From assembly GCF_022347725.1 (NCBI RefSeq), contig NZ_JAKRGB010000002.1, forward strand, positions 372,001 to 436,000: DNA of 64,000 bases, in the 5' to 3' direction. The notes under the pieces were generated by a model that saw nothing but the letters and a program-made list of their open reading frames with translations, was not told the DNA's origin and did no database searches. The position numbers and the translations under genes are program-made. Of this stretch, positions 32,180-60,360 are shown in pieces. The stretch is from Ruegeria sp. Ofav3-42 (GTDB lineage: Bacteria > Pseudomonadota > Alphaproteobacteria > Rhodobacterales > Rhodobacteraceae). The number at the start of each line of letters is the position of its first letter. Positions within the stretch are counted from its first letter, which is position 1.

Positions 32180-32186
32180 TACCAAA

Positions 32187-32216
32187 GCGCCCCCGGCCCG
32201 ATCTTGCCGGGGGCGC
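32187..32216 (+). terminator. Intercistronic stem-loop after the binding-protein gene
   Basis: GCGCCCCCGGC (32187-32197) and GCCGGGGGCGC (32206-32216) form a perfect 11-bp stem with an 8-nt loop and no T-run. It is more likely a 3' stabiliser or partial terminator that raises binding-protein mRNA over the ATPase and permease than a full stop. Confidence 0.7.
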
Positions 32217-32247
32217 AATCTGCAAGCTCAACCAAAGTGGGGCCAGT

Positions 32248-33297
32248 ATGACGGCGGATATCGCAATTGATGCACGTGGCGTTTGGAAGGTGTTCGGGGC
32301 ACGAGCGCAAGACGCATTGAAAGCCATTCACAGCGAAGGGCTGAGCAAGGCCGAAGTGCTGGACCGGTTCAATTGCGTTGTTGGTGTTGCCGACGCCAGC
32401 TTTGAGATTGAACGCGGTGAATTGTTCTGTGTCATGGGCCTGTCCGGCTCGGGCAAATCGACACTGGTCCGCCATGTGAACCGCCTGTTGGAACCAACTG
32501 ACGGCCACATCTATCTGGACGGCGATGATGTCATGGGCCTCAACGACGACGGTTTGCGCGATCTGCGCAATCGTCGCGTTGCCATGGTTTTCCAAAACTT
32601 CGGCCTGCTGCCTCACCGAACCGTGCGCGACAACGTCGCCATGCCCCTGGAAATCCGGGGCACCGGCAAGGCGCGTCGGTGGGAAGAGGCCGACCGGGTT
32701 CTGGAACTGGTAGAACTGAACGGCTGGGAAGACAAATACGCGCATGAGCTGTCCGGGGGTATGCAGCAGCGTGTCGGTCTTGCCCGGGCCATCGCCGCGG
32801 ACCCGGAGATCCTGCTGATGGACGAGCCGTTCTCGGCCCTTGATCCGCTGATCCGCAAGCAATTGCAGGATCAGTTCATGGAGTTGAGCCACAAGCTCAA
32901 CAAAACAACAATGTTCATTACCCATGATCTTGATGAGGCCATTCGTATCGGCCATCGCATCGCGATCATGAAAGACGGTCGCATCGTGCAGATTGGCACT
33001 CCGGAGGAAATCATCCTGAACCCCGCCGATGACTATGTCGCAGACTTCGTTGCCGGAATTTCCAAGCTCAACATGATCTTCGCCCATGCGGTGATGAAGC
33101 CGGTGGATGAGTTCGAGGCACATCACGGTGAAATCCCGGATGACGCAAAAGAGGCGCATCCCAATATGGACCTGTCCGACCTGATGAACCTCTGCGTCGA
33201 TGGGCATGGCGTGGTCGCGGTCACGCAAGACGGCAAGACCGTGGGTGTGATCAACCGCGCGGGACTCATCCGCGCCATTCAGGACAGCCAGGCATAA
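32248..33297 (+). CDS. ABC transporter ATP-binding protein, glycine betaine (ProV) type
   Basis: 349 residues. Walker A is GLSGSGKST (64-72), the signature LSGGMQQR (169-176) and Walker B ILLMDEP (189-195), with a switch His in MFITHDLDEAIRIG. The N-terminal helical lead (WKVFGARAQDALKAI) and C-terminal extension with CBS-like sequence (LMNLCVDGHGVVAVTQDGKT) are typical of ProV/OpuAA, where the CBS part senses ionic strength. It lies between its binding protein and permease. Confidence 0.93.
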   Translation: MTADIAIDARGVWKVFGARAQDALKAIHSEGLSKAEVLDRFNCVVGVADASFEIERGELFCVMGLSGSGKSTLVRHVNRLLEPTDGHIYLDGDDVMGLNDDGLRDLRNRRVAMVFQNFGLLPHRTVRDNVAMPLEIRGTGKARRWEEADRVLELVELNGWEDKYAHELSGGMQQRVGLARAIAADPEILLMDEPFSALDPLIRKQLQDQFMELSHKLNKTTMFITHDLDEAIRIGHRIAIMKDGRIVQIGTPEEIILNPADDYVADFVAGISKLNMIFAHAVMKPVDEFEAHHGEIPDDAKEAHPNMDLSDLMNLCVDGHGVVAVTQDGKTVGVINRAGLIRAIQDSQA

Positions 33298-33307
33298 GGG
33301 AACGGTT

Positions 33308-34825
33308 ATGAAACACGTTGACGCACAACAGGTCAAACCTGAAACCGCCGACCGTTTGGAAGGCCTGATCGGGGAATTCGTAGGTCAGAGTCAAGCTTAT
33401 TATCAGAAAGCTTTTGCCTACATGATGCAGGCTCCGGGGTACCGGTTCACACTGAACAAGGCTGCAGCAATCCTCGGACCAATCTGGTTCGGTGCACGCG
33501 GGCTCTGGTCCTGGTTTCTGGGATTTTTGGTCCTCGAGACACTGGCATACATACAGATCGGTTTAGGGCTTTTCGGCGATCTGGGGCGTGAATTCCGTGA
33601 ACGAGCCGCCCAGATTGAGCAAACGCTGGACCTACGCCGTCAGCAGATAGAAGCAGCGGAACAGTCCGGAGCGGCTTCCCTCGATTCACTGAAACGAGCG
33701 GCAGAGTCGCTGGAGGGCGCTTTGGCCGGGGCGCAGGAAGCTGCCCGAAGCGCGGACTCTACAGGCATCACGTATTTGGCAGTGGGAATAGTCCTGTTGC
33801 TGGCGGTGAAGTTTCTTTCGGCATCGTTGGCCAACTGGACTCTGGAAGGTCAGTTCGCACGTTGGCGGTCGGATACCAGCGTGGCGCATGGTTGGTCTGT
33901 TATACGGATGATCGTCGCCTCCGTTCTGACCGTGGTGGTCGTCGTACTTTCCGCAATCAAGTTTGCGCAACCTGACGCGCTGGCCGTTCTGAAGACCTTT
34001 CCGACCAATCGGGACTGGCGATTGAACGTCGGCGACGGAGTGCAGGCCGTTTTTGAATGGACCAAGACTGCGGGACGCGGGTTCTTTGACGGATTAACCT
34101 ACGGAATGCGTACCCTGTTGGACTGGATCGAAGTGGTGTTGGTCGATACCCCCTGGCCCGTGGTTGCGCTGGTGATCATCATGCTGGCCTTTCTGTCCGC
34201 TGGCCCACGCGTGGCGATTTTCACCGGTGCGGCGCTGGCCTATCTGGGCCTGCTGGATTTCTGGGAAAAGGCGATGACCACCATCGCCTTGCTTGGGGCC
34301 GCCGCGCTGATCTCGATCACGTTGGGTATTCCGCTTGGTATTTACTGCGCGCGCCGTCCGCGTGCATTTGCCATCGTGCGACCAATTCTGGACTTCATGC
34401 AGTCGATGCCGTCATTCGTGTATCTAATTCCGGTGGTCGCTTTCATTGGGTCCGGCAAACCTGCCGGTGTGGTGGCGACTATGATCTTCGGCAGCCCACC
34501 GGTGATCCGCTTTACGGTACTGGGTCTTCAGCAGGTGCCTGAGACGGTGCGTGAGGCCGCAATGGCCTTTGGCGCAACGCCGCGCTACCTGCTTTGGCGT
34601 GTCGATCTTCCACTGGCACACAAGACTATTATGGCTGGAGTAAACCAGACCATTCTGATGTCTCTGGCCATGGTTGTTGTAGCGTCATTGATCGGTGCCA
34701 AAGGATTGGGTGAAGACGTCCTGGAAGCGCTGCAATACGCGGCGGCAGGGCAAGGTATCCTGGCTGGCCTCGCGATCCTTTTCTGCGCACTTATCTTGGA
34801 CCGTATCGTAGCGGGAAAGAAGTGA
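33308..34825 (+). CDS. ABC transporter permease, glycine betaine (ProW) type, with long N-terminal extension
   Basis: 505 residues. The C-terminal half (about 285-500) is a binding-protein-dependent permease domain with five or so transmembrane helices and the EAA loop VREAAMAFGATPRYLLWRVD. The N-terminal 240 residues are unusual: a hydrophobic segment near 55-85, a helical coiled-coil stretch with Gln/Glu/Ala (about 95-150), and two more transmembrane segments near 155 and 200. ProW proteins normally have a shorter N-terminal tail, so this extension may be regulatory. It starts 10 bp after the ATPase stop, behind GGGAACGG. Confidence 0.9.
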   Translation: MKHVDAQQVKPETADRLEGLIGEFVGQSQAYYQKAFAYMMQAPGYRFTLNKAAAILGPIWFGARGLWSWFLGFLVLETLAYIQIGLGLFGDLGREFRERAAQIEQTLDLRRQQIEAAEQSGAASLDSLKRAAESLEGALAGAQEAARSADSTGITYLAVGIVLLLAVKFLSASLANWTLEGQFARWRSDTSVAHGWSVIRMIVASVLTVVVVVLSAIKFAQPDALAVLKTFPTNRDWRLNVGDGVQAVFEWTKTAGRGFFDGLTYGMRTLLDWIEVVLVDTPWPVVALVIIMLAFLSAGPRVAIFTGAALAYLGLLDFWEKAMTTIALLGAAALISITLGIPLGIYCARRPRAFAIVRPILDFMQSMPSFVYLIPVVAFIGSGKPAGVVATMIFGSPPVIRFTVLGLQQVPETVREAAMAFGATPRYLLWRVDLPLAHKTIMAGVNQTILMSLAMVVVASLIGAKGLGEDVLEALQYAAAGQGILAGLAILFCALILDRIVAGKK

Positions 34826-37439: not shown

Positions 37440-37646
37440 ATGGCACGGTATGTTCCACTCGCGGCTAAGGAAAGTACGGCAGCTCAACTACTCGACATGT
37501 CCGTTCCTGAATTCAGAGCTGGTGTTGAATCGGGTCATTTGCCAGATGCCAGAATTATCGCTGGAGAGAAGCGGTGGGACACCAAGCTCTTGGAGTTGAT
37601 TGTATCTGGTGAGCTCGTTGACGGACACGAGGAGATTTCTTGGTGA
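37440..37646 (+). CDS. Small excisionase-like protein
   Basis: 68 residues, MARYVPLAAKESTAAQLLDM onward, with a helical pattern (STAAQLLDMSVPEFRAGVES ... LPDARIIAGEKRWDT) resembling the helix-turn-helix plus wing of small AlpA/Xis proteins. It starts 9 bp after the previous gene, and its TGA overlaps the integrase GTG (GTGA), so the three genes form one coupled unit. The family assignment is tentative. Confidence 0.6.
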   Translation: MARYVPLAAKESTAAQLLDMSVPEFRAGVESGHLPDARIIAGEKRWDTKLLELIVSGELVDGHEEISW

Positions 37647-38707
37647 GCCGAAAGAAGTACCTTTGGCAACACCCAAGTGGCCGTTGGTATGTTCGCAAAG
37701 GCGGGCAGTACTACCGAATTCACGCGGATGCAGGCACACAAGCGTTCGACGACGAGTATTGGGAAATACTGCGCGGCAAACGCCATGTGTCGAAGCGGTC
37801 TTGGTCAGTACTGATCGAAGAATTTCGAAAGACGGACAAATGGGCAGGCTACGAGCAGCGTTACCGAGAGGACTTGGAGAAGTCCTTCATTTATCTGGAT
37901 GAGAAAATTGGCAAGCGAGACGTTGCAAGGCTCTCGGCAGCCGACATCTATAATGCGATGGACAAGAATGCCCACCGAGTCAATTTCGCGAACTACATTC
38001 CTGTAGCGGTAACATTGCTGGCGAAACTAGCGAGGCGAAAAGGTTGGCTTCACGAAAACCCAGCTGCAGGAATCGAACGCTTGCGAGTTCCTGACGACAG
38101 GAAAAAACCACACATTCCGTGGACAGATGTGGCCGTGGAGACTTGGCGAAACAACGCAAGTGAATTGCCAATGCTCATTTTTGAGCTCGGGGTGGGTACT
38201 GTCCAACGACCAAGAGACTTAAACGGTTTCACTTGGTTACACTATAAAGACAAGAACCTCGATTTGACCCAGAATAAAACGGGAGTGGAACTTCAACTTC
38301 CCTGTACACCAAATCTTATAGCTCAACTTGATGCTTTGAAAGCTGCACTTGGCGAAAAAGCTAAGCCAGATCGTCCAATATTGGCCAATGAAGACGGTTC
38401 ACCCATGAGTTATCACAAGATCGCTCGCATTATGCGCGCTGAGCGCAAGCGCCTCGGCGTTTTGGCGCATGATTTACATGCCATGCGCTATCGCGGTGTT
38501 ATGGAACTGGCTTGGGCAGGCTGCGATGACGACGAGATCATGAGCTACAGCGGTCACAAAACTAAGAAAATGGTGATCAAATATGCTGGTTTTGCGCGTC
38601 AGATCATGCGCGCTAAAACCGCTGCAGAGAAAAGAATGCTGTGGGAGCAGCTATTGAACGAAACGAGCACAAAGCAAGAAACTGATACTAGAGGTGATAC
38701 CCCATGA
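37643..38707 (+). CDS. Tyrosine recombinase/integrase of the island
   Basis: 354 residues from the GTG overlapping the previous stop; a TTG one codon earlier is possible. The N-terminal arm and core-binding part (to about 165) is followed by a catalytic domain with the active-site Arg near GTVQRPRDLNGFTW, His-x-x-Arg in DLHAMRYRGVMEL, a second His in SYSGHKTKKM and the nucleophile Tyr in MVIKYAGFA. Codon use is AT-richer than in the cob genes. The gene ends 31 bp before the 3' end of tRNA-Cys, the classic integrase and attachment-site arrangement. Confidence 0.92.
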   Translation: MSRKKYLWQHPSGRWYVRKGGQYYRIHADAGTQAFDDEYWEILRGKRHVSKRSWSVLIEEFRKTDKWAGYEQRYREDLEKSFIYLDEKIGKRDVARLSAADIYNAMDKNAHRVNFANYIPVAVTLLAKLARRKGWLHENPAAGIERLRVPDDRKKPHIPWTDVAVETWRNNASELPMLIFELGVGTVQRPRDLNGFTWLHYKDKNLDLTQNKTGVELQLPCTPNLIAQLDALKAALGEKAKPDRPILANEDGSPMSYHKIARIMRAERKRLGVLAHDLHAMRYRGVMELAWAGCDDDEIMSYSGHKTKKMVIKYAGFARQIMRAKTAAEKRMLWEQLLNETSTKQETDTRGDTP

Positions 38708-38738
38708 CAGCAGAAATTCATAACCCATTGATTTTATT

Positions 38739-38752
38739 GGAGGCGAGTACCG
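38739..38752 (+). repeat. Candidate attR core within the tRNA-Cys 3' end
   Basis: TGGAGGCGAGTACC, identical and co-oriented with 18809-18822. Integration within the tRNA 3' end leaves the tRNA intact on this side. It lies 31 bp past the integrase stop. Confidence 0.65.
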
Positions 38753-38811
38753 GAATCGAACCGGTGTACACGGATTTGCAATCCGCTGCGTCACCACTCC
38801 GCCAACTCGCC
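38739..38811 (-). tRNA. tRNA-Cys (GCA)
   Basis: The minus strand folds as a tRNA: acceptor 5' GGCGAGT pairs with 3' ACTCGCC, followed by T and an encoded CCA. The anticodon loop is GATTGCAAATC with anticodon GCA, and the T arm contains GGTTCGATTCC. Its 3' end borders the island, and the 14 bases at that end recur at 18809. Confidence 0.96.
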
Positions 38812-48747: not shown

Positions 48748-49617
48748 TTATGAGCCCGAGCTTTGCCCGAACTTTCGGAACAGCTTGGTGCGGTCAAACG
48801 CCTGTTCAAGCTCGTCTGTACGTTCCTTGACCGAATCCCAAAGTCTTTCCTGCACTTCGGCAATGACGCATTCCATCAGGACCAGAATGGACGCCATCGA
48901 ATCCCAGGCCGACGGCACAGCGATACGCGCGGCAAAGGTGTGTTTGGCCAGCCTGTGAATGGGCGAGCGCCATTGATCCGTGAACAACACGATCTCGGCT
49001 TCGCGTTCATGGCACAGTTGGCCGATCAACAAGGATGAGTTCTCGTAACGGCGGACGTCCAGCGCGACCAGCACATCATCTTTGCGCACATCCAGCAGGT
49101 CATGGGTCCATGACGCCGCAACGGGCAGTAGACGTACATCGGGACGGATCATCTGCAGGTGCAGATACAGGTACTGCGCCAGCGTGCCGGTGATGCGGCC
49201 GCCGGTAATGAAGATGCGCCGGTCGGGATCACATAACAGGTTGCAGAAACTGTCGAATTCGTCCGGGTCGACCTCATCAATGGTGCGTTTTTGATTGGCC
49301 AGTGTCTGCTGAGAATACCGGTTCAGAATGTGTTCTTCGGGCAGGTCATTCTGCCAGAGATCGCGTTTCGCGACCGGTCCCGAGATCATCTCTTTCACCT
49401 CGCCCCGTAAGGCGGCCTGAAACTGCGGATAGCCGTCAAATCCGGTTTTTTGCAGCATGCGCGCGACGGTCGTTGTTGAAACCGACGCGGCGCTGGCCAG
49501 TTCGGTGATGCTGCCAAGGCCCGCCATTGGGTAGTCGTCCAGCAGAACGCTGACCAACTGTCGTTCGGAGGGGGTCATTTTTTCTTTATGAGCCAGCAGC
49601 CTGTCCGTCACCCGCAC
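48748..49617 (-). CDS. MurR/RpiR-family transcriptional regulator
   Basis: 289 residues. The N-terminal RpiR helix-turn-helix (KMTPSERQLVSVLLDDYP ... LASAASVSTTTVARMLQKTG) is followed by a SIS domain (RIFITGGRITGTLAQYLYLH ... VLVALDVRRYENSSLL) that normally binds phosphosugars or other small ligands. It is divergent from the amidohydrolase/TRAP operon with palindromes in between, so it probably senses that pathway's substrate or intermediate. Confidence 0.9.
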   Translation of the reverse strand: MRVTDRLLAHKEKMTPSERQLVSVLLDDYPMAGLGSITELASAASVSTTTVARMLQKTGFDGYPQFQAALRGEVKEMISGPVAKRDLWQNDLPEEHILNRYSQQTLANQKRTIDEVDPDEFDSFCNLLCDPDRRIFITGGRITGTLAQYLYLHLQMIRPDVRLLPVAASWTHDLLDVRKDDVLVALDVRRYENSSLLIGQLCHEREAEIVLFTDQWRSPIHRLAKHTFAARIAVPSAWDSMASILVLMECVIAEVQERLWDSVKERTDELEQAFDRTKLFRKFGQSSGS

Positions 49618-49651
49618 TCAGCGTTCCTCCTGCATACGTTCGACCCTAGTG

Positions 49652-49740
49652 TGAATAATTTTTCAGCAGGATCAAGTGTGGTGGATTTTGTACAGGAAAA
49701 TTATTGACAGGTTAAGGTCGTATGTGGAAATTTTTCCACA
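49652..49740 (+). promoter_or_regulatory. Operator region between RpiR regulator and amidohydrolase operon
   Basis: TGTGGAAATTTTTCCACA (49723-49740) is a perfect 8-bp-arm palindrome 10 bp before the amidohydrolase ATG. Further upstream AATAATTTTTC (about 49655-49665) and GGAAAATTATT (about 49695-49705) form an inverted pair. TTGACA at 49704-49709 is a possible -35 element. AT-rich dyads of this kind are typical RpiR targets; binding is inferred. Confidence 0.6.
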
Positions 49741-49750
49741 CGCATCTTTA

Positions 49751-50527
49751 ATGGAATCGCAGGGCGGTATTTTGGACTTCGGAACAGTTGTTCACACGGA
49801 CATGGCGGATGGTCCTTTTTCAGTGGTGTTGGTTTGCGAACACGCGTCCAACCGCATTCCTGAATATTTGGGTGATATGGGTTTGTCTGCCGATGCCTTG
49901 CAGAGCCACATCGCTTGGGACCCGGGGGCCTTGGCTATTGCAAAGCTGATGGCCGAGCGCATGCAGGCACCATTGGTGCATGGTGGTGTATCGCGGCTGG
50001 TCTACGACTGTAATCGCCCACCCGAAGCTGCTGGGGCAATGCCCGTGCGCAGTGAGGACTATCAGATTCCGGCCAATGCCGACATGTCCGATCAAGAGCG
50101 CAAAAGCAGGATCGAAGGCATCTATAAGCCTTTTATCGCGGCATTGGCCGGTCTGATCGCCGACAACCGGACCGCGCTTGAGCTTATGGTGACGATCCAC
50201 AGTTTCACTCCGGTCTACCATGGCCAAAGGCGCGAGGTTGAACTGGGCGTTCTGCACGGCGTGGATGACCGGTTTGCGCAGGCAATGATGGTGTCGACGC
50301 CTGATGATCCGCCCTTTGTGATCCGTTTGAACGAGCCGTATTCGGCCGCCGATGGGGTTGCGCACACGCTGGATGCCCAGGCTCTGCCGCATGGCTTGCT
50401 GAACGTCATGATCGAAATCCGGAACGACCTGATCCAAACGCCCGAGCAGCAAGAAGCGATGGCTGACTGCCTAGTGCCGTGGATCGTGCAGACCCTTGCG
50501 GAGTTGAAGAAAGGGGGAGCGGCGTGA
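49751..50527 (+). CDS. N-formylglutamate amidohydrolase family enzyme
   Basis: 258 residues from MESQGGILDFGTVVHTDMAD. The family motifs are VVLVCEHASNRIPEYLG, RLVYDCNRPPEA, VTIHSFTPVYHG and NVMIEIRNDLIQ, with the His/Glu metal ligands in CEHASN and the catalytic HSFTP region. Family members hydrolyse N-formylglutamate in histidine breakdown or related amides. No hut genes lie nearby, and the operon contains TRAP permease genes, so a different gamma-glutamyl or N-acyl amide may be the substrate. It overlaps the next gene as GTGA. Confidence 0.88.
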   Translation: MESQGGILDFGTVVHTDMADGPFSVVLVCEHASNRIPEYLGDMGLSADALQSHIAWDPGALAIAKLMAERMQAPLVHGGVSRLVYDCNRPPEAAGAMPVRSEDYQIPANADMSDQERKSRIEGIYKPFIAALAGLIADNRTALELMVTIHSFTPVYHGQRREVELGVLHGVDDRFAQAMMVSTPDDPPFVIRLNEPYSAADGVAHTLDAQALPHGLLNVMIEIRNDLIQTPEQQEAMADCLVPWIVQTLAELKKGGAA

Positions 50528-51108
50528 TCAAAGCGATGGTGTCATATGTGCGGATCGTTGATGCGATAAATTACCGGATCGGGCGTGTCATGATGTGGGG
50601 CCTGTTCGTGATGATGGGCATCCTGCTTTGGTCCTCGATCTCGAAGACGTTCTTCCTGCCATCGCTTTGGACGCTGGAAATGGCGCAGTTCGCGATGGTG
50701 ACCTATTACATCATGGGTGGCCCTTATTCGATCCAGATGGGTTCGAACGTGCGGATGGACCTGTTCTACCACAACTGGAGCCCGCACCGGAAAGCCTGGT
50801 TCGATGCGATCACCGTTCTGCTGCTGATCTTCTACCTGGGTGTCTTGTTCTATGGCGGGCTTGGTTCCACGGCCTACAGCCTTGGCTACTGGGGCGATGA
50901 ACCGGTTTTCTACTTTTTCGGTCTGCTAACCGGCAGTGAGGAAATCGGGCGGCTTGAACGCTCATCAACCGCGTGGCGCCCCTACATCTGGCCGATCAAA
51001 ACCATCATGGTGTTCGGCTTCTTCCTGATGCTGCTGCAGGCGATATCGGAATTTTTCAAAGACATAGCCCGGATCAACGGGCAGGAAATCGGGGTCTCAC
51101 GGGCATGA
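50524..51108 (+). CDS. TRAP transporter small permease (DctQ type)
   Basis: 194 residues from a GTG overlapping the previous stop. Four transmembrane helices are visible (near 24-44, 52-72, 96-118, 158-178), with the DctQ pattern WTLEMAQFAMVTYYIMGGPY followed by NVRMDLFY. A longer than usual loop of about 35 residues lies between helices 3 and 4. It couples to the large permease downstream (ATGA overlap). Confidence 0.9.
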   Translation: MIKAMVSYVRIVDAINYRIGRVMMWGLFVMMGILLWSSISKTFFLPSLWTLEMAQFAMVTYYIMGGPYSIQMGSNVRMDLFYHNWSPHRKAWFDAITVLLLIFYLGVLFYGGLGSTAYSLGYWGDEPVFYFFGLLTGSEEIGRLERSSTAWRPYIWPIKTIMVFGFFLMLLQAISEFFKDIARINGQEIGVSRA

Positions 51109-52424
51109 GCCAGGAATATATCGCCATCTTCATGTTCGCGCTGATGATGCTGATGCTGTTTACAGGTCAGCGCGTTTTTGGAGCGATTGGTGCAGTTGCA
51201 ACAATCGCGGCACTGGCGCTGTGGGGCACAGGCGGGCAGGACATTACATTCTCGGCCGCGATGAAGCTGATGAAATGGTATCCGCTGCTGACGCTGCCGA
51301 TGTTCATTTTCATGGGCTATGTGCTCAGCGAGAGCCGGCTGGCCGATGACCTTTATCGGATGTTCCACGTCTGGATGGGGCCGGTGAATGGTGGTCTGGC
51401 CATCGGCACGATCGGGTTGATGGTTTTGGTCTCTGCCATGAACGGCCTTAGCGTCGCGGGCATGGCCATCGGTGCAACCATCGCGCTGCCCGAGCTTTTG
51501 CGGCGCGGCTACGACAAGACGATGGTGACAGGGGTCATTCAGGCCGGGTCCAGTCTTGGTATTCTGGTGCCCCCATCGGTGGTTCTGGTTCTATACGCGA
51601 TGATCGCGCGTCAGCCTGTCGGGCAGCTGTGGTTAGCGGGTATCGTTCCGGGTTTGCTGATGGCCGGGATGTTCATCCTGTACATCTGGATCCGCTGCCG
51701 CATTCAGCCAGAGCTCGGCCCTGCGATGCAAGACGCACATGAAGTGCCACGGGCCGAGAAAATCCGGCTGCTCGGGGCAGGGGCACTGCCGCTGATCATC
51801 TTCGCGGCGATGATGGTGCCATTTGTGAATGGCTGGACCTCACTGGTCGAAAGCTCGGCCATCGGCGCGCTGACCGCATTGGCCGTGTCCGTCATCAAAC
51901 GTCGCATGACCTGGAAGATTTTCGAGGACTGCACCAAGCAGACGCTTGCCATTTCCTGCATGTTCATGTGGATCATTCTGGCCGCTCTGGGCTTTGGTGC
52001 GGTGTTTGATGGTCTGGGCGCGGTGAAAGCCATCGACAATCTGTTCACCGAACAACTTGGTCTGTCGCCGTGGATGATCCTGATTCTGATGCAGCTCAGC
52101 TTTATCGTCATGGGGACGTTCCTGGACGACACGGCCATGCTGGTGATTGTTGCGCCGCTCTATGTGCCGCTCGTCGGAGCGCTGGGCTTTGACCTGATCT
52201 GGTACGGGGTGCTTTACACCGTCACCACTCAGATCGCCTATATGACGCCGCCCTTCGGCTATAACCTTTTCCTGATGCGCGCGATGGCACCGCCCGAGAT
52301 CGGGTTGAAGGACATCTATACCTCGATCTTCCCCTTTGTCGGGGTGATGGTCCTGGCCCTCACAATCATCATGATTTTCCCGGAAATCGCGCTTTGGCTG
52401 CCCGGATATGTTTATGGAAACTAA
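51105..52424 (+). CDS. TRAP transporter large permease (DctM type)
   Basis: 439 residues from MSQEYIAIFMFALMMLMLFT, with about 12 transmembrane helices. Family motifs are LPMFIFMGYVLSESRLADDL, NGLSVAGMAIGATIALPELL, GVIQAGSSLGILVPPSVVLV and MGTFLDDTAMLVIVAPLYVP. It forms the Na+-driven channel that takes substrate from the periplasmic binding protein. The ATG overlaps the small-permease stop; an in-frame upstream extension lies inside dctQ. Confidence 0.93.
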   Translation: MSQEYIAIFMFALMMLMLFTGQRVFGAIGAVATIAALALWGTGGQDITFSAAMKLMKWYPLLTLPMFIFMGYVLSESRLADDLYRMFHVWMGPVNGGLAIGTIGLMVLVSAMNGLSVAGMAIGATIALPELLRRGYDKTMVTGVIQAGSSLGILVPPSVVLVLYAMIARQPVGQLWLAGIVPGLLMAGMFILYIWIRCRIQPELGPAMQDAHEVPRAEKIRLLGAGALPLIIFAAMMVPFVNGWTSLVESSAIGALTALAVSVIKRRMTWKIFEDCTKQTLAISCMFMWIILAALGFGAVFDGLGAVKAIDNLFTEQLGLSPWMILILMQLSFIVMGTFLDDTAMLVIVAPLYVPLVGALGFDLIWYGVLYTVTTQIAYMTPPFGYNLFLMRAMAPPEIGLKDIYTSIFPFVGVMVLALTIIMIFPEIALWLPGYVYGN

Positions 52425-52430
52425 TAAGAA

Positions 52431-52447
52431 TGCCCGGCAAACGGGCA
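52431..52447 (+). other. Intercistronic stem-loop before the TRAP binding protein
   Basis: TGCCCG-GCAAA-CGGGCA forms a 6-bp stem with a 5-nt loop between the permease and binding-protein genes. It may set the 5' end of a more abundant binding-protein mRNA after processing. Confidence 0.5.
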
Positions 52448-52475
52448 CAGAAACTTTAACGGAGAGGAAATTGAC

Positions 52476-53510
52476 ATGACGACAAGACGTAAGTTTCTGA
52501 AAACAGCCGGTGTTGGCGTTGCAGCCGCACCGCTGGCGACGCCCGCGCTGGCGCAGAACACAATCACATGGCGGATGCAGACCTATGCCGGTCCCGCTCT
52601 GGCCGAGCACGTGATTGATCCGGCCATCAAGATGTTCAACCAGATTGCTGGTGATCGGATGCAGATCGAACTGTTCTACGCCGATCAGTTGGTTCCTACG
52701 GGCGAACTGTTCCGTGCGATGCAGAAGGGTACAATCGACGCGGTGCAGTCGGACGATGACTCGATGGCGTCGCCGACCGAAGTCACCGTGTTCGGCGGAT
52801 ACTTCCCCTTTGCGTCGCGCTATTCGCTCGACGTGCCGGTATTGTTCAACCAGTGGGGCCTGAACGAAATCTGGGACGAGGAATACTCCAAGGTCGGCGT
52901 CAAGCACATCAGCGCCGGTGCATGGGACCCGTGCCACTTTGCGACCAAGGACCCGATCAACTCGCTTGCAGACATGAAAGGCAAGCGCATTTTCACCTTC
53001 CCAACGGCGGGCCGGTTCCTGTCGCAGTTCGGCGTCGTGCCAGTGACCCTGCCATGGGAAGACATCGAAGTCGCGGTTCAGACCGGCGAGCTGGACGGCA
53101 TCGCATGGTCGGGCATCACCGAAGACTACACAGTTGGCTGGGCCGACGTGACCAACTATTTCCTGACCAATAACGTGTCGGGCGCATGGGCGGGTCATTT
53201 CTTTGCCAATATGGACCGTTGGAACGAACTGCCCGAAGATCTGCAGACCTTGTTCAAGGTGTGCTGTGATCAGTCGCACTATTATCGCCAGTGGTGGTAC
53301 TGGGGTGGCGAAGCCAACCTGCGTGTCAACGGCACCAAGATGCAGCTGACCTCCATCCCGGACGAAGAATGGGCAACCGTCGAGGAAGCCGCAGTGAAGT
53401 TCTGGGACGAAATCGCCGCGGAATCCGAGACTAAGGCGAAAGTTGTCGACATCTTCAAGCGCTACAACGCCGAAATGCTCAAGGCCGGTCGGCCTTATCG
53501 TTACGGCTGA
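52476..53510 (+). CDS. TRAP transporter substrate-binding protein (DctP type)
   Basis: 344 residues. The N-terminus TTRRKFLKTAGVGVAAAPLA is a twin-arginine signal, cleaved after ALA before QNTITWRMQ. The mature protein has the DctP fold, with FYADQLVPTGELFRAMQKGT and MKGKRIFTFPTAGRFLSQFG (the Arg that usually salt-bridges a carboxylate is in this region) and ELDGIAWSGITEDYTVGWAD. Conserved Arg contact implies a carboxylate-bearing ligand in most members. A strong hairpin follows. Confidence 0.92.
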   Translation: MTTRRKFLKTAGVGVAAAPLATPALAQNTITWRMQTYAGPALAEHVIDPAIKMFNQIAGDRMQIELFYADQLVPTGELFRAMQKGTIDAVQSDDDSMASPTEVTVFGGYFPFASRYSLDVPVLFNQWGLNEIWDEEYSKVGVKHISAGAWDPCHFATKDPINSLADMKGKRIFTFPTAGRFLSQFGVVPVTLPWEDIEVAVQTGELDGIAWSGITEDYTVGWADVTNYFLTNNVSGAWAGHFFANMDRWNELPEDLQTLFKVCCDQSHYYRQWWYWGGEANLRVNGTKMQLTSIPDEEWATVEEAAVKFWDEIAAESETKAKVVDIFKRYNAEMLKAGRPYRYG

Positions 53511-53517
53511 TAAGCGA

Positions 53518-53553
53518 AATCCCGACGCGAGGGGCACTCCTTGCGTCGGGATT
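53518..53553 (+). terminator. Strong stem-loop after the TRAP genes
   Basis: A 15-bp stem with one G-T pair: AATCCCGACGCGAGG (53518-53532) with CCTTGCGTCGGGATT (53539-53553), loop GGCACT. No T-run follows, so it may act as a processing or stability element as much as a terminator. Confidence 0.75.
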
Positions 53554-53656
53554 AGACATCAGGAAGCAACATCATTTATGTTCACATCTGTTCCAGAAAT
53601 AGAACGAATAAGCCGGATGCACACATGGGCGCATCGGTTGATAGAGGTGTGAAGAT

Positions 53657-55342
53657 ATGGCTATCGCGAGCTTTTTGATTGAGATTTTTGCGGCAACCAT
53701 GTTGCTGCTGTTTGCCGTGCGTTTGGTGCGTACCGGTATTGAACGGCGCTTTGGTGCTCTGTTCCAGTCGATCCTGACGCGCCACTCCAACAGCTTCGTC
53801 GCGGGCGGGGCGGGGATGGTCCTGGCCACGATCCTGCAAAGTTCAGCTGCTGTGACGGTCTTGCTGACCGGCTTCGCCGCAGCGGGGATGGTGACGTTTG
53901 GGATGGCTCTGGCGGGTGTGCTGGGCGCCGATCTGGGCGCCGCACTCGTCATTCAGGTTCTGTCCTACGATCTGGGCTGGCTTCAGCCCGCATTGTTGGC
54001 GTTGGGCGGTTGGCTGTACCTCAAATCCGAAAGGTCGAATGTTCGGCTTATGGGACGGATCGTTCTGGGCGTCGCCTTCATTCTGATCTCGCTCCAATTC
54101 CTGCGCGAAGCGGTTGAGCCGATCCGTGAAAGCGCGTTTCTGCCTGCGATTGCAGGATATCTTGAAGCCGACTATTTCAGCGCCTTTATCGTCGGTGCGG
54201 TACTGGCTTTTGTCATGCACAGCTCGGTTGCGACGATCCTGATGTGCGTTGCCCTGGTTCAGATCGGCGCGATCCCGTTCGCCGCGGGATTGTCTCTGGT
54301 TTTGGGGGCAAACCTCGGTTCGGCCTTTATCCCGATCTGGCTGACGCGAGATATGACCGTCACAGCCCGACGTATTCCGCTGGCCAACTTGCTTCTGCGG
54401 GGCACCGCAGCCCTGGTGATGCTGATTGTCGTCAACGTCGCCGGTTTGCACGACGCGCTATTGGTGACAAGCGCAGCGCAGTCGCTGATCTTCGCGCATA
54501 TCGGGTTTAATCTTGCAGTTTTCCTGGTAGCGACGGGATTTGTGAACCAGTTGGAACAGCCTATGGCCCTTCTGCTGGCAGAACCCAAAGTCGAGAAGAA
54601 TGCGTTGGATCAGTTCTCTGATGCGCTTACGCCGCTGGGGGATCCCGGCGGTTCGAGGGCCAGCGTTGCCATGTCGTCCGTGCGCCACGAGCTGTTGCAG
54701 ATGATCACGCAGGTCGAACGTATGTTCCGCCCAGTGCTGGATATCTACGAGCAGGATGACAGTGACGCGATTTCAGCGCTTTGGCAGCAGGACGAGCGGG
54801 TCAATACGCAATTGACCGAAATCCGCCGCTTTGTCGCGCGTATGCCCCGGCAGAACATGAGCAAAGCGCAGATAAAAACCGCGCGGGGACTGGTGGAATA
54901 CGCCATCCGACTTGAGGCAGCGGGCGATGTCGTCTCAAACCGGATGACACGTACGGCGCAGATCAAGCACACGGAGCGTACCGAGTTTTCGGCGCAAGGT
55001 TGGAAAGAGCTGACGGATCTGCATTCGGCAATTCTGGAAAGCTTCTCTTTGGCGCGGCATGTGCTTTTGGTTGACGACATGGATTGTGCCCGTCGGCTGG
55101 TGCTGGACAAGGCCGAGGTCAAACGGATGTCGCGCGATAGCCGCAAGGCGCACCTGAAACGGCTGGAGCGCGGACAGACCGAGAGTTTTCAGTCCAGCGA
55201 CCTGCATTTGGAAACCCTGCGGTCCATGCGCGATCTGCACGGGCACATCGCCGCCATCGCCTATCCGATCCTCTACAAAAGCGGTCAGGTTCTGGAGACG
55301 CGCCTGGTTATGGAAATGGACAAGGAAGCTGCCGATGACTGA
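53657..55342 (+). CDS. Na/Pi-cotransporter family protein with PhoU-like C-terminus
   Basis: 561 residues. The N-terminal half carries two Na_Pi_cotrans repeats with the QSSAA/HSSVA signatures (VLATILQSSAAVTVLLTGFA and VLAFVMHSSVATILMCVALV) and glycine-rich GADLGAA/GANLGSAF loops. Residues about 330-550 are helical and PhoU-like (HELLQMITQVERMFRPVLDI ...). It probably moves phosphate or a related anion with Na+. Its place between TRAP and catabolic genes is unusual, and it follows a strong stem-loop, so it may be separately expressed. Confidence 0.9.
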   Translation: MAIASFLIEIFAATMLLLFAVRLVRTGIERRFGALFQSILTRHSNSFVAGGAGMVLATILQSSAAVTVLLTGFAAAGMVTFGMALAGVLGADLGAALVIQVLSYDLGWLQPALLALGGWLYLKSERSNVRLMGRIVLGVAFILISLQFLREAVEPIRESAFLPAIAGYLEADYFSAFIVGAVLAFVMHSSVATILMCVALVQIGAIPFAAGLSLVLGANLGSAFIPIWLTRDMTVTARRIPLANLLLRGTAALVMLIVVNVAGLHDALLVTSAAQSLIFAHIGFNLAVFLVATGFVNQLEQPMALLLAEPKVEKNALDQFSDALTPLGDPGGSRASVAMSSVRHELLQMITQVERMFRPVLDIYEQDDSDAISALWQQDERVNTQLTEIRRFVARMPRQNMSKAQIKTARGLVEYAIRLEAAGDVVSNRMTRTAQIKHTERTEFSAQGWKELTDLHSAILESFSLARHVLLVDDMDCARRLVLDKAEVKRMSRDSRKAHLKRLERGQTESFQSSDLHLETLRSMRDLHGHIAAIAYPILYKSGQVLETRLVMEMDKEAADD

Positions 55343-55392
55343 TGGCAGACAATCGAAATCGAGGTCTCTCTGAGTGACAAAGGATACTAAAG

Positions 55393-56754
55393 ATGGGCAA
55401 TGATGCGATTTTGGCCGATCTGAAAGCCAAATTCGAAGCAGGCGAGGTCGACACGGTTCTGGTCTGTATGGTGGACATGCAGGGCCGCCTGATGGGCAAA
55501 CGTTTCCACGCCGGACACTTCGTGGCAGGCGCGTGGGAAGAGACGCATTGCTGCAACTATCTGCTGGCCACGGATCTTGAGATGGCCACACCGGACGGTT
55601 ACTCCGCGACCAGTTGGGAGCGCGGTTATGGCGACTATGTCATGAAGCCCGACCTCAGCACCCTGCGCCCGGTGCCCTGGCTGGAGGGCACGGCGATGGT
55701 GATGTGCGATGTGCTGGATCATCACACGCATGAGGAGGTGCCGCACGCGCCGCGCTCGATCCTGAAAAAACAGGTCAATCGTCTCAAGGCCATGGGTTAT
55801 GACGCGATGTGTGCCACCGAACTGGAGTTCTTCCTGTTCGAAAAGAGCTTTGACCAGATTCGTAAGGAAGGCTTCCGGAATCTGGAGCCGATCTCGGGCT
55901 ATAACGAAGACTATCACATCCTCCAAACCACCAAGGAAGAGCATGTGATGCGCCCGATCCGCAACCATCTGTGGAATGCGGGGATACCGGTTGAGAACTC
56001 AAAGGGTGAGGCCGAGACCGGGCAGGAAGAGCTGAACATCAAATACGCGCCTGCCATGGACACGGCCGAGTATCACTCGATCGCCAAAAACGCGGTGAAA
56101 GAGATCGCGTGGCAGCACGGTCATGCGGCGACGTTTCTGCCGAAATGGCATCACGACAAGGTCGGCAGTTCGAGCCACGTGCACCAGTCGCTTTGGGCCG
56201 ATGGCAAGCCTGCCTTCTATGATGCGGCGGATGAACTGGGCATGTCCGCGCTGATGAAAAGCTACATGGCAGGTCTGCTGAAATACGCAGGCGATTACAC
56301 CTATTTCATGGCGCCCTACATCAACAGCTACAAACGGTTCATGAAGGGAACCTTTGCGCCCACGCGGATCATCTGGTCGGTCGACAACCGCACTGCCGGT
56401 TTCCGTCTGTGCGGGGATGGGACCAAGGCGGTTCGGGTTGAATGCCGGATACCGGGCTCGGACATGAACCCCTATCTGGCGATGGCCGGAATGCTGGCGG
56501 CCGGGATAGCAGGCATAGAAGAAAGTTTGGAGCTGCAGCCGCCGACTACGGGCGACGTGTATCAGGGCGAAACTGGCATGATCCCGGGCAACCTGCGCGC
56601 CGCGCGGGATGCGTTGCATGGATCGGCCATGTTGCGTGCAGCCATGGGTGATGAGGTTGTTGATCACTACACTCGCGCGGCTGAGGTCGAGATCGAAGAG
56701 TTCGAGCGTGTGGTGACCGATTGGGAAGTTGCGCGCGGATTCGAGCGTGCGTGA
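55393..56754 (+). CDS. Glutamine-synthetase-family ligase (gamma-glutamyl-amine synthetase-like)
   Basis: 453 residues. GS fold motifs are present: catalytic ATELEFFLFEKSF, AETGQEELNIKYAPAMD, KVGSSSHVHQSLWADGKPAF and WSVDNRTAGFRLCGDGTKAV. The N-terminal beta-grasp is VDTVLVCMVDMQGRLMGKRF. It lacks the adenylylation-site Tyr region of GlnA and resembles PuuA/IpuC-type enzymes that join glutamate to an amine. With the aldehyde and alcohol dehydrogenases that follow it probably starts a gamma-glutamylation pathway. It begins 50 bp after the Na/Pi gene. Confidence 0.88.
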   Translation: MGNDAILADLKAKFEAGEVDTVLVCMVDMQGRLMGKRFHAGHFVAGAWEETHCCNYLLATDLEMATPDGYSATSWERGYGDYVMKPDLSTLRPVPWLEGTAMVMCDVLDHHTHEEVPHAPRSILKKQVNRLKAMGYDAMCATELEFFLFEKSFDQIRKEGFRNLEPISGYNEDYHILQTTKEEHVMRPIRNHLWNAGIPVENSKGEAETGQEELNIKYAPAMDTAEYHSIAKNAVKEIAWQHGHAATFLPKWHHDKVGSSSHVHQSLWADGKPAFYDAADELGMSALMKSYMAGLLKYAGDYTYFMAPYINSYKRFMKGTFAPTRIIWSVDNRTAGFRLCGDGTKAVRVECRIPGSDMNPYLAMAGMLAAGIAGIEESLELQPPTTGDVYQGETGMIPGNLRAARDALHGSAMLRAAMGDEVVDHYTRAAEVEIEEFERVVTDWEVARGFERA

Positions 56755-56765
56755 GACCGGGTTAG

Positions 56766-56806
56766 GCTGGGGGCTCTGCCCCCAGACCCCCGAGGTATTT
56801 TGGGCC
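56766..56806 (+). repeat. GC-rich palindromic repeat typical of roseobacters
   Basis: CTGGGGGC-TCT-GCCCCCAG (56767-56785), followed by ACCCCCGAGGTATTTTGGGC. From memory this hairpin and following sequence recur between genes in many Rhodobacteraceae genomes. Only one copy is seen here. Confidence 0.55.
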
Positions 56807-56849
56807 AGATGAAGCAGGGGATCCTGTTTCTTTCGGAAATGGAGTGAAT

Positions 56850-58232
56850 ATGGGGCAGATGTTGCAATGTGTCTCGCCGATCGACGGATCGGTTTATGCG
56901 GAACGTGAGGTGCTGTCGCGTGGGGCTGCGTTTGAAGCCGCAGCTCGCGCAAGGGCCGCACAGGCCGAATGGGCTGCGCGTCCTCTGCAGGAGCGGATCG
57001 ATCTTGTGATGGCGGGCGTGGCGGCCGTTGGCGCGATGAATGATGAGATCGTGCCCGAGCTGGCGCACATGATGGGCCGCCCGGTGCGTTACGGCGGAGA
57101 GTTTGGCGGCTTTAACGAGCGCGCCAGCCATATGGCAGAAATTGCCGAGGCGTCTCTGGCCGAAATCGCGGTCGGTGAGGATGAGACTTTTAAGCGTTAC
57201 ATTAAGCGCATCCCGCACGGCGTGGTTTTTGTGGTGGCGCCATGGAACTACCCTTACATGACGGCGATCAACACAGTGGCCCCGGCATTGATCGCGGGGA
57301 ACACTGTGATCCTGAAACATGCCACACAGACGCTGCTGGTGGGTGAGCGTATGGCGCAGGCGTTTCATTCGGCGGGTGTGCCCGAGGATGTGTTCCAGAA
57401 TGTGTTCCTGAGCCATGACGTGACCAATGACCTGATCGCGGGAAATGCGTTTGATTTCGTGAATTTCACCGGCTCGGTCGGTGGCGGTCAGGCGATGGAG
57501 CGTGCGGCGGCGGGTACGTTTACCGGTGTTGGCACCGAGCTGGGAGGTAAAGATCCCGGTTATGTCATGGATGACGCTGATCTGGATGCAGCCGTTGATA
57601 CTCTGATCGACGGGGCAATGTTCAACTCGGGTCAGTGCTGTTGCGGGATCGAGCGGATTTACGTCCATGAAAGCCTATACGATGATTTCGTTGCCAAGGC
57701 GGTTGAGGTCGTAAAGGGTTACAAGCTGGGCAATCCGCTGGACACTGAGACGACAATTGGTCCGATGGCCAATGTCCGGTTTGCCGATGAGGTGCGCGCG
57801 CAGATTGCCGAGGCTGTCGAAGCCGGGGCAGTAGCCCATATCGACACCTTCCCTGAGGATGATGGTGGCGCTTACCTGACGCCGCAGATTCTGACCAACG
57901 TCTCTCATGACATGCGCGTGATGCGGGATGAGAGCTTTGGACCGGTGGTTGGCATCATGAAAGTGTCGTCAGATGAAGAAGCCATCGCTCTGATGAATGA
58001 TAGTGAGTTCGGCCTGACCGCTAGCCTGTGGACCCGCGATTTGGACCGCGCGGCACGTGTGGGCGACGCCATCGAGACCGGCACCGTGTTCATGAACCGC
58101 GCGGACTATCTGGACCCCGGCCTCTGCTGGGCAGGCTGCAAGAACACTGGGCGCGGCGGCGGTTTGTCCGTCATCGGCTATCACAACCTGACACGTCCCA
58201 AATCCTACCACCTGAAAAAGGTTACAGGCTAA
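56850..58232 (+). CDS. Aldehyde dehydrogenase family protein
   Basis: 460 residues from MGQMLQCVSPIDGSVYAERE, behind GGAG at 5 nt; a GTG two codons earlier is weaker. NAD-dependent ALDH motifs are present: FVVAPWNYPYMTAINTVAPA, FTGSVGGGQAMERAA, the general base Glu in TELGGKDPGYVMDD and the nucleophile Cys in FNSGQCCCGIERIYV. In context it probably oxidises a gamma-glutamyl aminoaldehyde to the acid. Confidence 0.93.
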   Translation: MGQMLQCVSPIDGSVYAEREVLSRGAAFEAAARARAAQAEWAARPLQERIDLVMAGVAAVGAMNDEIVPELAHMMGRPVRYGGEFGGFNERASHMAEIAEASLAEIAVGEDETFKRYIKRIPHGVVFVVAPWNYPYMTAINTVAPALIAGNTVILKHATQTLLVGERMAQAFHSAGVPEDVFQNVFLSHDVTNDLIAGNAFDFVNFTGSVGGGQAMERAAAGTFTGVGTELGGKDPGYVMDDADLDAAVDTLIDGAMFNSGQCCCGIERIYVHESLYDDFVAKAVEVVKGYKLGNPLDTETTIGPMANVRFADEVRAQIAEAVEAGAVAHIDTFPEDDGGAYLTPQILTNVSHDMRVMRDESFGPVVGIMKVSSDEEAIALMNDSEFGLTASLWTRDLDRAARVGDAIETGTVFMNRADYLDPGLCWAGCKNTGRGGGLSVIGYHNLTRPKSYHLKKVTG

Positions 58233-58239
58233 GGGCACC

Positions 58240-58276
58240 GGCCTGCTCTGGACAGCCCCCCTCGCCAGAGCAGGCC
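58240..58276 (+). other. Intercistronic stem-loop
   Basis: GGCCTGCTCTGG (58240-58251) and CCAGAGCAGGCC (58265-58276) form a perfect 12-bp stem with a 13-nt loop between the aldehyde and alcohol dehydrogenase genes. No T-run follows, so it is probably an RNA processing or stability element. Confidence 0.65.
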
Positions 58277-58300
58277 TCAAATCACAAAGGAAAACCTGAC

Positions 58301-59446
58301 ATGTCACTCGTTGGAAACTGGTCGTACCCGACCGCGATCAAATTCGGGGCAGGGCGCATCAAGGAACTGCCCGAAGCCTGCGCGGCTGCGGGCATGAAAA
58401 AGCCTCTGCTGGTCACTGACAAAGGGTTGGCCGACCTGCCGATCACAACGCAGACGTTGGACATAATGGAGGCCGCCGGTCTGGGCCGTGGACTGTTCAG
58501 CGATGTGGACCCGAACCCGAATGAAAAGAACCTGGAAGCCGGCGTGGAAGCCTACCGCGCGGGTGGCCATGACGGGGTGATCGCCTTTGGCGGTGGCTCG
58601 GGGCTGGATTTGGGCAAGATGGTCGCCTTCATGGCGGGGCAGACGCGTCCCGTCTGGGATTTTGAGGATATCGGCGACTGGTGGACCCGCGCAAATGCAG
58701 ACGCCATTGCGCCGATCATCGCGGTGCCTACGACCGCGGGAACGGGTTCCGAGGTTGGCCGCGCCAGCGTCATCACCAATTCCGAGACGCACGCCAAGAA
58801 GATCATCTTTCACCCCAAGGTTCTGCCATCGGTGGTGATCTGTGACCCCGAGCTGACCGTCGGCATGCCCAAGTTCATCACCGCCGGTACCGGGCTGGAT
58901 GCCTTCGCACACTGCGTCGAGGCGTTCTCCAGCCCGCACTACCACCCGATGAGCCAGGGCATTGCGCTGGAAGGCATGCGGCTGGTTAAGGAATATCTGC
59001 CGCGCGCCTACGCGGATGGTAGTGATATCGAAGCCCGCGCTCAGATGATGAGCGCCGCTGCGATGGGTGCAACCGCCTTCCAGAAAGGGCTGGGTGCAAT
59101 CCACGCAATGAGCCACCCGGTTGGTGCTGTGTTCAACACGCATCACGGTACAACGAATGCCGTCTGTATGCCTGCGGTTCTGGAGTTCAATGCCCCGGCC
59201 ATTGCAGACCGTTTCCAGTCGGCGGCTGCCTATCTGGGCATAGACGGTGGTTTCGACGGGGTCCGTGCTTTTGTGCAGTCATTCAATGACTCGCTGGGGA
59301 TCCCGGTCAAACTGTCCGAACTCGGCGTGACCGAGGATGCGATCCCGGAACTGGTGCAGGGGGCGATCATTGACCCGTCCTGCGGCGGCAACCCGATCAA
59401 GCTCACTGAGGATAATCTGACCGACTTGTTCAAAGCCGCGTTGTGA
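58301..59446 (+). CDS. Iron-containing alcohol dehydrogenase
   Basis: 381 residues from MSLVGNWSYPTAIKFGAGRI, behind an AAAGGAAAACC ribosome site. Group III ADH motifs are present: the NAD site FGGGSGLDLGKMVAF, TTAGTGSEVGRASVI, and metal ligands in GTGLDAFAHCVEAFSSPHYH and IHAMSHPVGAVFNTHHGTTN. It probably oxidises an alcohol group to the aldehyde used by the preceding dehydrogenase. A terminator follows. Confidence 0.93.
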   Translation: MSLVGNWSYPTAIKFGAGRIKELPEACAAAGMKKPLLVTDKGLADLPITTQTLDIMEAAGLGRGLFSDVDPNPNEKNLEAGVEAYRAGGHDGVIAFGGGSGLDLGKMVAFMAGQTRPVWDFEDIGDWWTRANADAIAPIIAVPTTAGTGSEVGRASVITNSETHAKKIIFHPKVLPSVVICDPELTVGMPKFITAGTGLDAFAHCVEAFSSPHYHPMSQGIALEGMRLVKEYLPRAYADGSDIEARAQMMSAAAMGATAFQKGLGAIHAMSHPVGAVFNTHHGTTNAVCMPAVLEFNAPAIADRFQSAAAYLGIDGGFDGVRAFVQSFNDSLGIPVKLSELGVTEDAIPELVQGAIIDPSCGGNPIKLTEDNLTDLFKAAL

Positions 59447-59520: not shown

Positions 59521-60360
59521 GTGACCCCGTTTGTCATAGCCATCATTTTGACGGCCGCGCTGTTGCACGCAGTGTGGAACGCGATTGTCAAAACCGCAGT
59601 CGATCGGACCACGACACTGGGGCTGGTCGCGCTGGGTCATGTCATCCCCGCGACAGCGATGATCTTGCTATTGCCGCTGCCCAGTGCCGAGAGCTTTCCG
59701 TACATCCTGATCTCAACCGTCGTTCATTTCGGATACTACTACATGCTGGGCAAAGCCTATCAGCATGGAGACCTGAGCGTCGTTTACCCGATAGCGCGTG
59801 GTATCGTGCCCGCGCTGGTCTCGCTATGGGCGATGTTGCTGGTGGGCGAGGTGCTGCCTTTGCAGGCTTGGGGTGGGATCGCGCTGATCGCGCTCGGTAT
59901 CCAGCTCAGCAGTTGGAAGGCCTTGCGGTCCGGCGTCGGGCGCTGGGCCCTGGGGTTTGCGGTGGGCACTGGCTTTTGCATATCGGTTTATTCGGTCGTG
60001 GACGGTATAGGCGTGCGGCTGTCCGGCAACACGCTCAGCTACTGGGCCTGGGGCGCATTCCTGCACCTGTTCATCGCCGGGTTCGTCGGCATCAAAAAGC
60101 GCGACACCCTGGCCAGCCTTCCCGCCAAGACGTGGATGATCGGCATTTTGGGCGGGCTGGTGTCGATGACAGCCTATGGCCTTGTGCTTTATGCCAAAAA
60201 CTTCGCCCCGCTGGGCGCGGTTTCGGCGCTGCGCGAGACTTCGGTCATTTTCGCCGCACTGATCGGGTTCGTTTTCCTGAAGGAAGGCAACTGGATGCGT
60301 CGGCTGGGGGCTGCTGTTCTGATGGCGTTTGGTGTCGCACTGATCGGCATGGCTGTCTGA
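59521..60360 (+). CDS. DMT-superfamily (EamA) transporter
   Basis: 279 residues from a GTG (TPFVIAIILTAALLHAVWNA), with ten transmembrane helices in two EamA repeats. Conserved features are LLHAVWNAIVKTA, HFGYYYMLGKAYQHGDLSVV with YPIARGIVPALVSL, and the second-repeat LRETSVIFAALIGFVFLKEG. DMT members mostly export amino acids, nucleosides or drugs. It lies 20 bp after the terminator of the catabolic genes; a functional link is possible but not shown. Confidence 0.9.
   Translation: MTPFVIAIILTAALLHAVWNAIVKTAVDRTTTLGLVALGHVIPATAMILLLPLPSAESFPYILISTVVHFGYYYMLGKAYQHGDLSVVYPIARGIVPALVSLWAMLLVGEVLPLQAWGGIALIALGIQLSSWKALRSGVGRWALGFAVGTGFCISVYSVVDGIGVRLSGNTLSYWAWGAFLHLFIAGFVGIKKRDTLASLPAKTWMIGILGGLVSMTAYGLVLYAKNFAPLGAVSALRETSVIFAALIGFVFLKEGNWMRRLGAAVLMAFGVALIGMAV

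Follow-up and report, generated by a model that had tools for sequence, protein, structure and literature searches.

In our study, we analyzed a stretch of 64,000 nucleotides from Ruegeria sp. Ofav3-42 (contig NZ_JAKRGB010000002.1, positions 372,001 to 436,000; hereafter the window) and found that its interval 48748-59446 very probably corresponds to an ethanolamine-utilization operon of the eto, or gamma-glutamylethanolamide, type. Ethanolamine is a piece of membrane lipids, and a published marine route for it, which recycles lipid nitrogen, would be encoded in another Ruegeria-like genome. The gene set and order of the interval match those of the eto operon (RpiR, GGAH, EtoVWX, ETAGA, GAADDH, GETADH), plus one inserted gene. 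The operon MED193_10021-10056 of Phaeobacter sp. MED193 has been described with the same eight genes, RpiR included, in an order identical to that of the window, RpiR-GGAH-EtoV-EtoW-EtoX-ETAGA-GAADDH-GETADH (Westermann et al. 2023, PMC10132767). Because genes and order are the same, the pathway of the window, including its last step by a member of the N-formylglutamate amidohydrolase family (FGase), is already published and is not new. For this strain, the individual reactions, the operator and what the inserted gene does are all inferred.

Gene content and conservation of the operon

Eight genes follow one another head to tail on the + strand, and a single gene for an RpiR-family regulator with HTH_6 and SIS domains (48748-49617, - strand) is divergent from them. 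The first encodes the FGase, a predicted gamma-glutamylglycine amidohydrolase (49751-50527; PF05013, 135 bits; 250 bits to PDB chain 2odf, Atu2144), whose frame is open from a GTG at 49676 and whose likely start we assumed to be the ATG at 49751. It is followed by a tripartite ATP-independent periplasmic (TRAP) importer composed of a small permease (DctQ/EtoV, 50536-51108; PF04290; frame open from 50479, start guessed), a large permease (DctM/EtoW, 51105-52424; PF06808) and a solute-binding protein with a Tat signal (DctP/EtoX, 52476-53510). Next come the inserted gene, which encodes a sodium/phosphate (Na/Pi) cotransporter-family protein with a PhoU domain and is a candidate phosphate exporter (53657-55342; PF02690 and PF01895), and a glutamine synthetase (GS)-like ligase, the predicted ethanolamine gamma-glutamylase (55393-56754; PF00120). 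The last two genes encode an aldehyde dehydrogenase, predicted to oxidize the gamma-glutamyl aldehyde (56844-58232; PF00171, 384 bits), and an iron alcohol dehydrogenase, predicted to act on gamma-glutamylethanolamide (58301-59446; PF00465).

The open frames passed the Pfam gathering cut-offs for SIS and HTH_6 (RpiR), FGase, DctQ, DctM, DctP, Gln-synt_C, Aldedh and Fe-ADH, which bears out the gene list of a previous sequence-only reading (ligase, two dehydrogenases, amidohydrolase, TRAP importer and regulator). That list was incomplete, as it overlooked the Na/Pi-PhoU gene inside the interval and did not include an EamA permease gene just beyond it (59521-60360, + strand; PF00892), which is possibly part of the same unit. 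The same two genes distinguish the window from MED193: in the list of the Fig. 5 legend of PMC10132767, EtoX (10041) stands directly before ETAGA (10046), whereas the window has the Na/Pi-PhoU gene between them, and the MED193 gene list is without the EamA gene that the window carries behind its alcohol dehydrogenase. EamA genes 81-86% identical to that of the window come after the Na/Pi gene in four loci (L155, L156, L159 and L161). The TRAP binding protein and the ligase were found together in 62 of the 80 related loci that we fetched, which are the best 80 of 587 confirmed ligase matches, and this conserved arrangement excludes a chance grouping of the genes.

Evidence for ethanolamine as the substrate

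The DctP protein obtained 635 bits against PDB chains 4uab and 4xf5, with the next solved chain at 72.5 bits. Both chains represent Csal_0678, a protein from Chromohalobacter salexigens, which belongs to another bacterial class than the host of the window; Csal_0678 is 83% identical to the window protein and was its top match by sequence, by VIA-align and by Foldseek. A model of DctP built from the single sequence had a mean predicted local distance difference test score (pLDDT) of 37 and was useless; rebuilding it with 33 aligned sequences, the window included, gave a modest pLDDT of 60, and we report the structural match only because the sequence identity agrees with it. On these sequence grounds, EtoX of the window is orthologous to Csal_0678, and its homologs (E <= 1e-100) are present in 160 of 295 genomes of the family. 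Csal_0678 and its neighbors were reportedly characterized by Vetting et al. 2015.

It is important to consider that the primary substrate of the enzymes could be a different small amino alcohol, such as alaninol or serinol, with ethanolamine secondary. IpuC-type alaninol pathways follow the same logic, and 4xf5, a second entry of Csal_0678, reportedly has an aminopropanol as its ligand. We regard this reading as very unlikely given the orthologous Phaeobacter operon, in which GGAH, EtoX, ETAGA, GAADDH and GETADH increase on phosphorylethanolamine and whose EtoX binds ethanolamine with a dissociation constant of 7.9 uM, binding of phosphorylethanolamine being described there as not seen (PMC10132767). 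Ethanolamine binding and induction are attributed to the window by analogy with that operon. In addition, the same source cites Csal_0678 as ethanolamine-binding and describes the MED193 genes as close kin of the pathway by which C. salexigens and Agrobacterium use ethanolamine; a table in PMC9397018 gives the C. salexigens set the enzyme families found in the window (PF00120, PF00465, PF00171 and PF05013). The series proposed in the sequence-only reading for an amino alcohol, namely to ligate, oxidize twice and hydrolyze, is the published pathway of the orthologous operon (PMC10132767, PMC6529630); its choice between an amino alcohol and an amine falls to the amino alcohol, narrowed to ethanolamine and possibly also alaninol.

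The ligase matched chain 5dm3, which we take to be the neighboring Csal_0679 of C. salexigens, with 798 bits and chain 11zs with 567, followed by chains named glutamine synthetase at no more than 190 bits. It remained below the cut-offs of the ammonia-GS models TIGR00653 (253 bits, cut-off 429) and TIGR03105 (232 bits, cut-off 470), and in our alignment GlnA of the same genome has a DGSS segment and, within GFEAP, a Glu, both assumed to belong to the ammonia site and both missing from the ligase; the positions that we take to bind glutamate and metal, together with the arginine positions, align in the ligase as judged by eye. As far as its sequence tells, the ligase is not a canonical ammonia GS, and activity on ammonia alone, an outcome raised in the sequence-only reading, is unlikely because those segments, with the roles that we assume for them, are missing. 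Its closest named relatives among the matches listed, 96% identical, belong to Ruegeria atlantica HKCCD6212, Ruegeria sp. Alg231-54 and Ruegeria sp. THAF57.

Four genes of the GS family are present in the genome: glnA, the ligase gene of the operon and a pair of genes at 466-469 kb of contig C22, which lie beside a PuuB-like FAD oxidase (named from its translation), resemble a putrescine set and are 30-31% identical to the ligase. The 196 bits of the ligase against the gamma-glutamylputrescine synthetase model (cut-off 650) speak for a putrescine or polyamine (Puu-type) cluster in the interval, a reading made exceedingly improbable by those two other genes, by the lack of any amine oxidase within 48748-59446 and by the orthology of EtoX to Csal_0678. 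The ethanolamine ammonia-lyase (Eut) route was rejected since EutB was not found in the genome, in a search that among 14 control genomes was positive in E. coli only. A cobalamin-synthesis-like run at 2634-16059 (several methylases, a CobN-like frame of 1097 residues and a CobW-like frame, all named from translations) is present despite the absence of the B12-dependent EutB.

The FGase matched no NCBIfam family at E <= 0.001, and no hut genes lie within 48748-59446, which makes a HutG-type role on histidine intermediates, the other alternative raised in the sequence-only reading, unlikely; three further FGase genes are present elsewhere in the genome. The aldehyde dehydrogenase fell below the cut-off of every NCBIfam model listed (25 of 45), and the nearest model of the iron alcohol dehydrogenase, among those listed, is 4-hydroxybutyrate dehydrogenase (365 bits, cut-off 500). 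With these scores, the substrates of both dehydrogenases rest on gene context, a point that weighs against our assignment. The same pathway steps, ending with the formylglutamate-amidohydrolase family, are given in PMC6529630 and PMC9397018; in these sources and in PMC10132767, the FGase and dehydrogenase steps are described as predicted or induced rather than assayed. The FGase assignment as last step, which the sequence-only reading had considered unusual, has already been published (PMC10132767, PMC6529630, PMC9397018) and is not new. The cluster of Streptomyces coelicolor (GlnA4, SCO1611-1615) shares the gamma-glutamylethanolamide logic and the FGase family as proposed final step, while it contains a short-chain instead of an iron alcohol dehydrogenase and another regulator, and its gene list is without a TRAP importer (PMC6529630).

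In the proposed mechanism, EtoX and EtoVW would import ethanolamine, and the GS-like ligase would couple it to glutamate using ATP. The two dehydrogenases, of the iron alcohol and the aldehyde type, would then convert gamma-glutamylethanolamide into gamma-glutamylglycine, which the FGase would cleave into glutamate and glycine; since glutamate is freed in this last step, it would be a recycled carrier.

Candidate operator of the RpiR regulator

Two elements sit between the RpiR and FGase genes: a TTGACA (49704-49709, + strand), a candidate -35 element that presumably belongs to the operon promoter and is invariant in 13 aligned rows (the window and 12 loci), and an 18-bp near-palindrome, TGTGGAAATTTTTCCACA (49723-49740, no strand assigned), a candidate RpiR operator. 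The latter is the sole site of the window at three or fewer mismatches (two rows, one per strand; 0.06 expected). We compared the 63 of 80 loci in which RpiR and FGase genes point away from each other across a gap of under 400 bases. The closest match to the palindrome had at most three mismatches in all 13 loci whose RpiR is at least 81% identical to that of the window, 12 of them being the rows aligned beside the window and many of them closely related, and at least four mismatches in all 50 loci with a divergent RpiR (51% identity or less). This co-occurrence supports, and does not prove, that 49723-49740 is the RpiR operator; an RpiR repressor bound to this palindrome would probably give substrate induction.

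The Na/Pi-PhoU gene inside the operon

Special attention was given to the Na/Pi-PhoU gene, the sole PF02690 frame of the genome, whose product combines a PhoU domain with two stretches of the cotransporter family, all over cut-off. Within the 80-locus set, such a gene lies between etoX and the ligase gene in 6 of the 62 TRAP loci, all from Ruegeria, and three further genera carry it at the same spot (L149, L150 and L151). In our tree, in which context labels are rough (taken from about 9 kb on each side), the window belongs, together with these three genera, to a starred clade of ten rows, nine eto-TRAP rows and L172, an aminoethylphosphonate cluster; this clade falls inside a larger starred clade that mixes other contexts. 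A recent accident as the origin of the gene is countered by the three further genera and the joint starred clade. We also rejected a derivation from the TRAP-less clusters described below, as the tree does not nest the window copy there.

Homologs of the Na/Pi protein at E <= 1e-60 were found in 96 of the 295 family genomes, that of the window included. We compared the neighborhoods of 40 matches of at least 45% identity, the window excluded, with those of 20 of the 61 remoter ones (32-40% identical). Genes for ethanolamine, phosphatase/hydrolase or aminoethylphosphonate functions lie within about 9 kb of 29 of the 40 closer homologs vs 3 of the 20 remoter ones (Fisher p = 3e-5, kinship and short contigs ignored). 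By overlapping classes, the 40 loci include 8 with ethanolamine glutamylation, 16 with an IMPase-like phosphatase or PehA-like hydrolase and 16 with aminoethylphosphonate catabolism; the three positive ones among the remoter loci (L190, L192 and L195) give 3, 0 and 1 for the same classes. One representative per neighbor class was scanned against NCBIfam: PhnW, PbfA, PhnA, PhnS2 and PhnU2 were over their cut-offs, whereas the hydrolase reached 450 of the 900 bits required for PehA and the phosphatase 243 of the 275 required for HisN, so that both are named at family level only.

In this context, the Na/Pi-PhoU protein would most likely serve phosphate export or balance when ethanolamine derives from phosphoethanolamine. 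Three considerations lead to export. First, a passage of PMC8316502 on marine strains, Aliiroseovarius among them, reports export of inorganic phosphate (Pi) by cells that use aminoethylphosphonate as their only nitrogen source, and names no exporter. Second, YjbB, an enterobacterial Na/Pi cotransporter to which we liken the window gene by description, is said to act as a phosphate exporter (PMC11389368). Third, when a phosphorus-containing amine is consumed for its nitrogen, phosphate would be in surplus.

Several observations weigh against an export role or against the gene being needed in the operon. The import of free ethanolamine gives a phosphate exporter no purpose, so that the core pathway leaves the gene unexplained. 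In Ruegeria sp. THAF57 (L077), the space from DctP to the ligase is 1209 bases vs 1888-1896 in five relatives, and its Na/Pi gene looks shortened (it was too short to enter the tree); together with its presence in only 6 of the 62 TRAP loci, this suggests that the gene is dispensable. Eleven of the 40 closer loci have none of the scored genes, two of them (L163 and L166) being contigs under 5 kb. No phosphatase gene adjoins the Na/Pi gene in the window, the best match to the IMPase-like phosphatase in the genome is just 37% identical, and a PehA-like homolog (64%) has no phosphatase or regulator alongside. Given this phosphatase match and the isolated PehA-like gene, intracellular phosphoethanolamine use is at most a candidate model for this strain. 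The genome has no PhnW over cut-off.

Na/Pi cotransporters are able to import, and the protein could instead be an additional transporter for an amine or an anion, or could take back up the Pi that is set free outside the membrane. The missing adjoining phosphatase favors this reading, as does the long stem of the eto-TRAP clade (0.68 changes per column), because of which the function may have shifted. We consider it possible, if somewhat doubtful, since many relatives of the gene accompany pathways that free Pi in the cytoplasm and YjbB is described as promoting export (PMC11389368). Word searches of a library of open-access papers, including the relevant parts of PMC8316502, PMC10590968, PMC10574752, PMC8154272 and PMC9381506, found no printed link of Na/Pi cotransporters or phosphatases to phosphonate or ethanolamine clusters.

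TRAP-less ligase clusters

A TRAP binding protein was not found in 18 of the 80 loci, two of which (L018 and L022) are 4-kb contigs that start at the ligase. An IMPase-like phosphatase (at least 45% identity) is present in 10 of these 18 loci vs none of the 62 TRAP loci (Fisher p = 3e-8, kinship ignored), and a PehA-like hydrolase in 5 of 18 vs none of 62; the Na/Pi gene occurs in 5 of the 18. One locus (L086) has a PhnS2/PhnU2-type importer, over cut-off, immediately before the ligase. For 13 of the 18 loci, the source genome was searched for the ligase and EtoX: the ligase is single-copy (E <= 1e-150) in 12 of these genomes, and EtoX is absent at E <= 1e-80 in 8. Nine of the 13 are of the phosphatase type, five without EtoX and four with EtoX elsewhere (one partial). 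Leisingera daeponensis DP1N14-2 carries a phosphatase-type and a TRAP-type cluster (L037 and L046) in one genome, with two ligase copies. An oligopeptide-type ABC importer with a binding protein of about 680 residues recurs near hydrolase, DeoR, phosphatase and Na/Pi genes in L155, L019 and L020 and, as judged by eye, in L165.

The simplest reading of these clusters is that they may be fed by phosphorylated ethanolamine, and PMC10132767 leaves open a use of phosphoethanolamine that is independent of PhoB and PhoX. We tentatively propose, as a scheme that may well not hold, that Rhodobacteraceae have two front ends: the EtoX TRAP importer for free ethanolamine, and a TRAP-less phosphatase type (with a PehA-like hydrolase, a DeoR/GlpR-like regulator and Na/Pi-PhoU in some loci), in which phosphoethanolamine or its phosphodiester would be dephosphorylated in the cytoplasm and Pi exported, giving the PhoB/PhoX-independent route. 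Proteins of the same Na/Pi subfamily would also export the Pi of aminoethylphosphonate catabolism, and the window would be a hybrid of TRAP importer and exporter. In MED193, phosphorylethanolamine induces a GlpR-type protein, MED193_11439 (PMC10132767). The scheme, and with it the export link, is weakened by the Na/Pi gene being present in no more than 4 of the 10 loci of the phosphatase type, by a locus with phosphatase and ligase without the other pathway enzymes (L062), and by histidinol phosphatase being the nearest named family of the phosphatase. The neighborhoods of the Na/Pi gene give one candidate for both the Pi exporter and PhoB/PhoX-independent phosphoethanolamine use, and the TRAP-less clusters and the Na/Pi transporter would bear on two open steps of marine phosphorus cycling.

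Other features of the window

An integrase-like frame (37640-38707, + strand; named from its translation) ends beside a tRNA-Cys gene (38738-38811, - strand), and the GC content is 51-59% across 16-40 kb vs 59-64% before; an island integrated at tRNA-Cys is possible. An IS110-type transposase-like frame, also named from its translation, is located at 26276-27310. The translations at 28844-34825 resemble an ABC importer of the glycine-betaine type, with binding protein, ATPase and permease, behind a frame of 775 residues with an aminomethyltransferase-like part.

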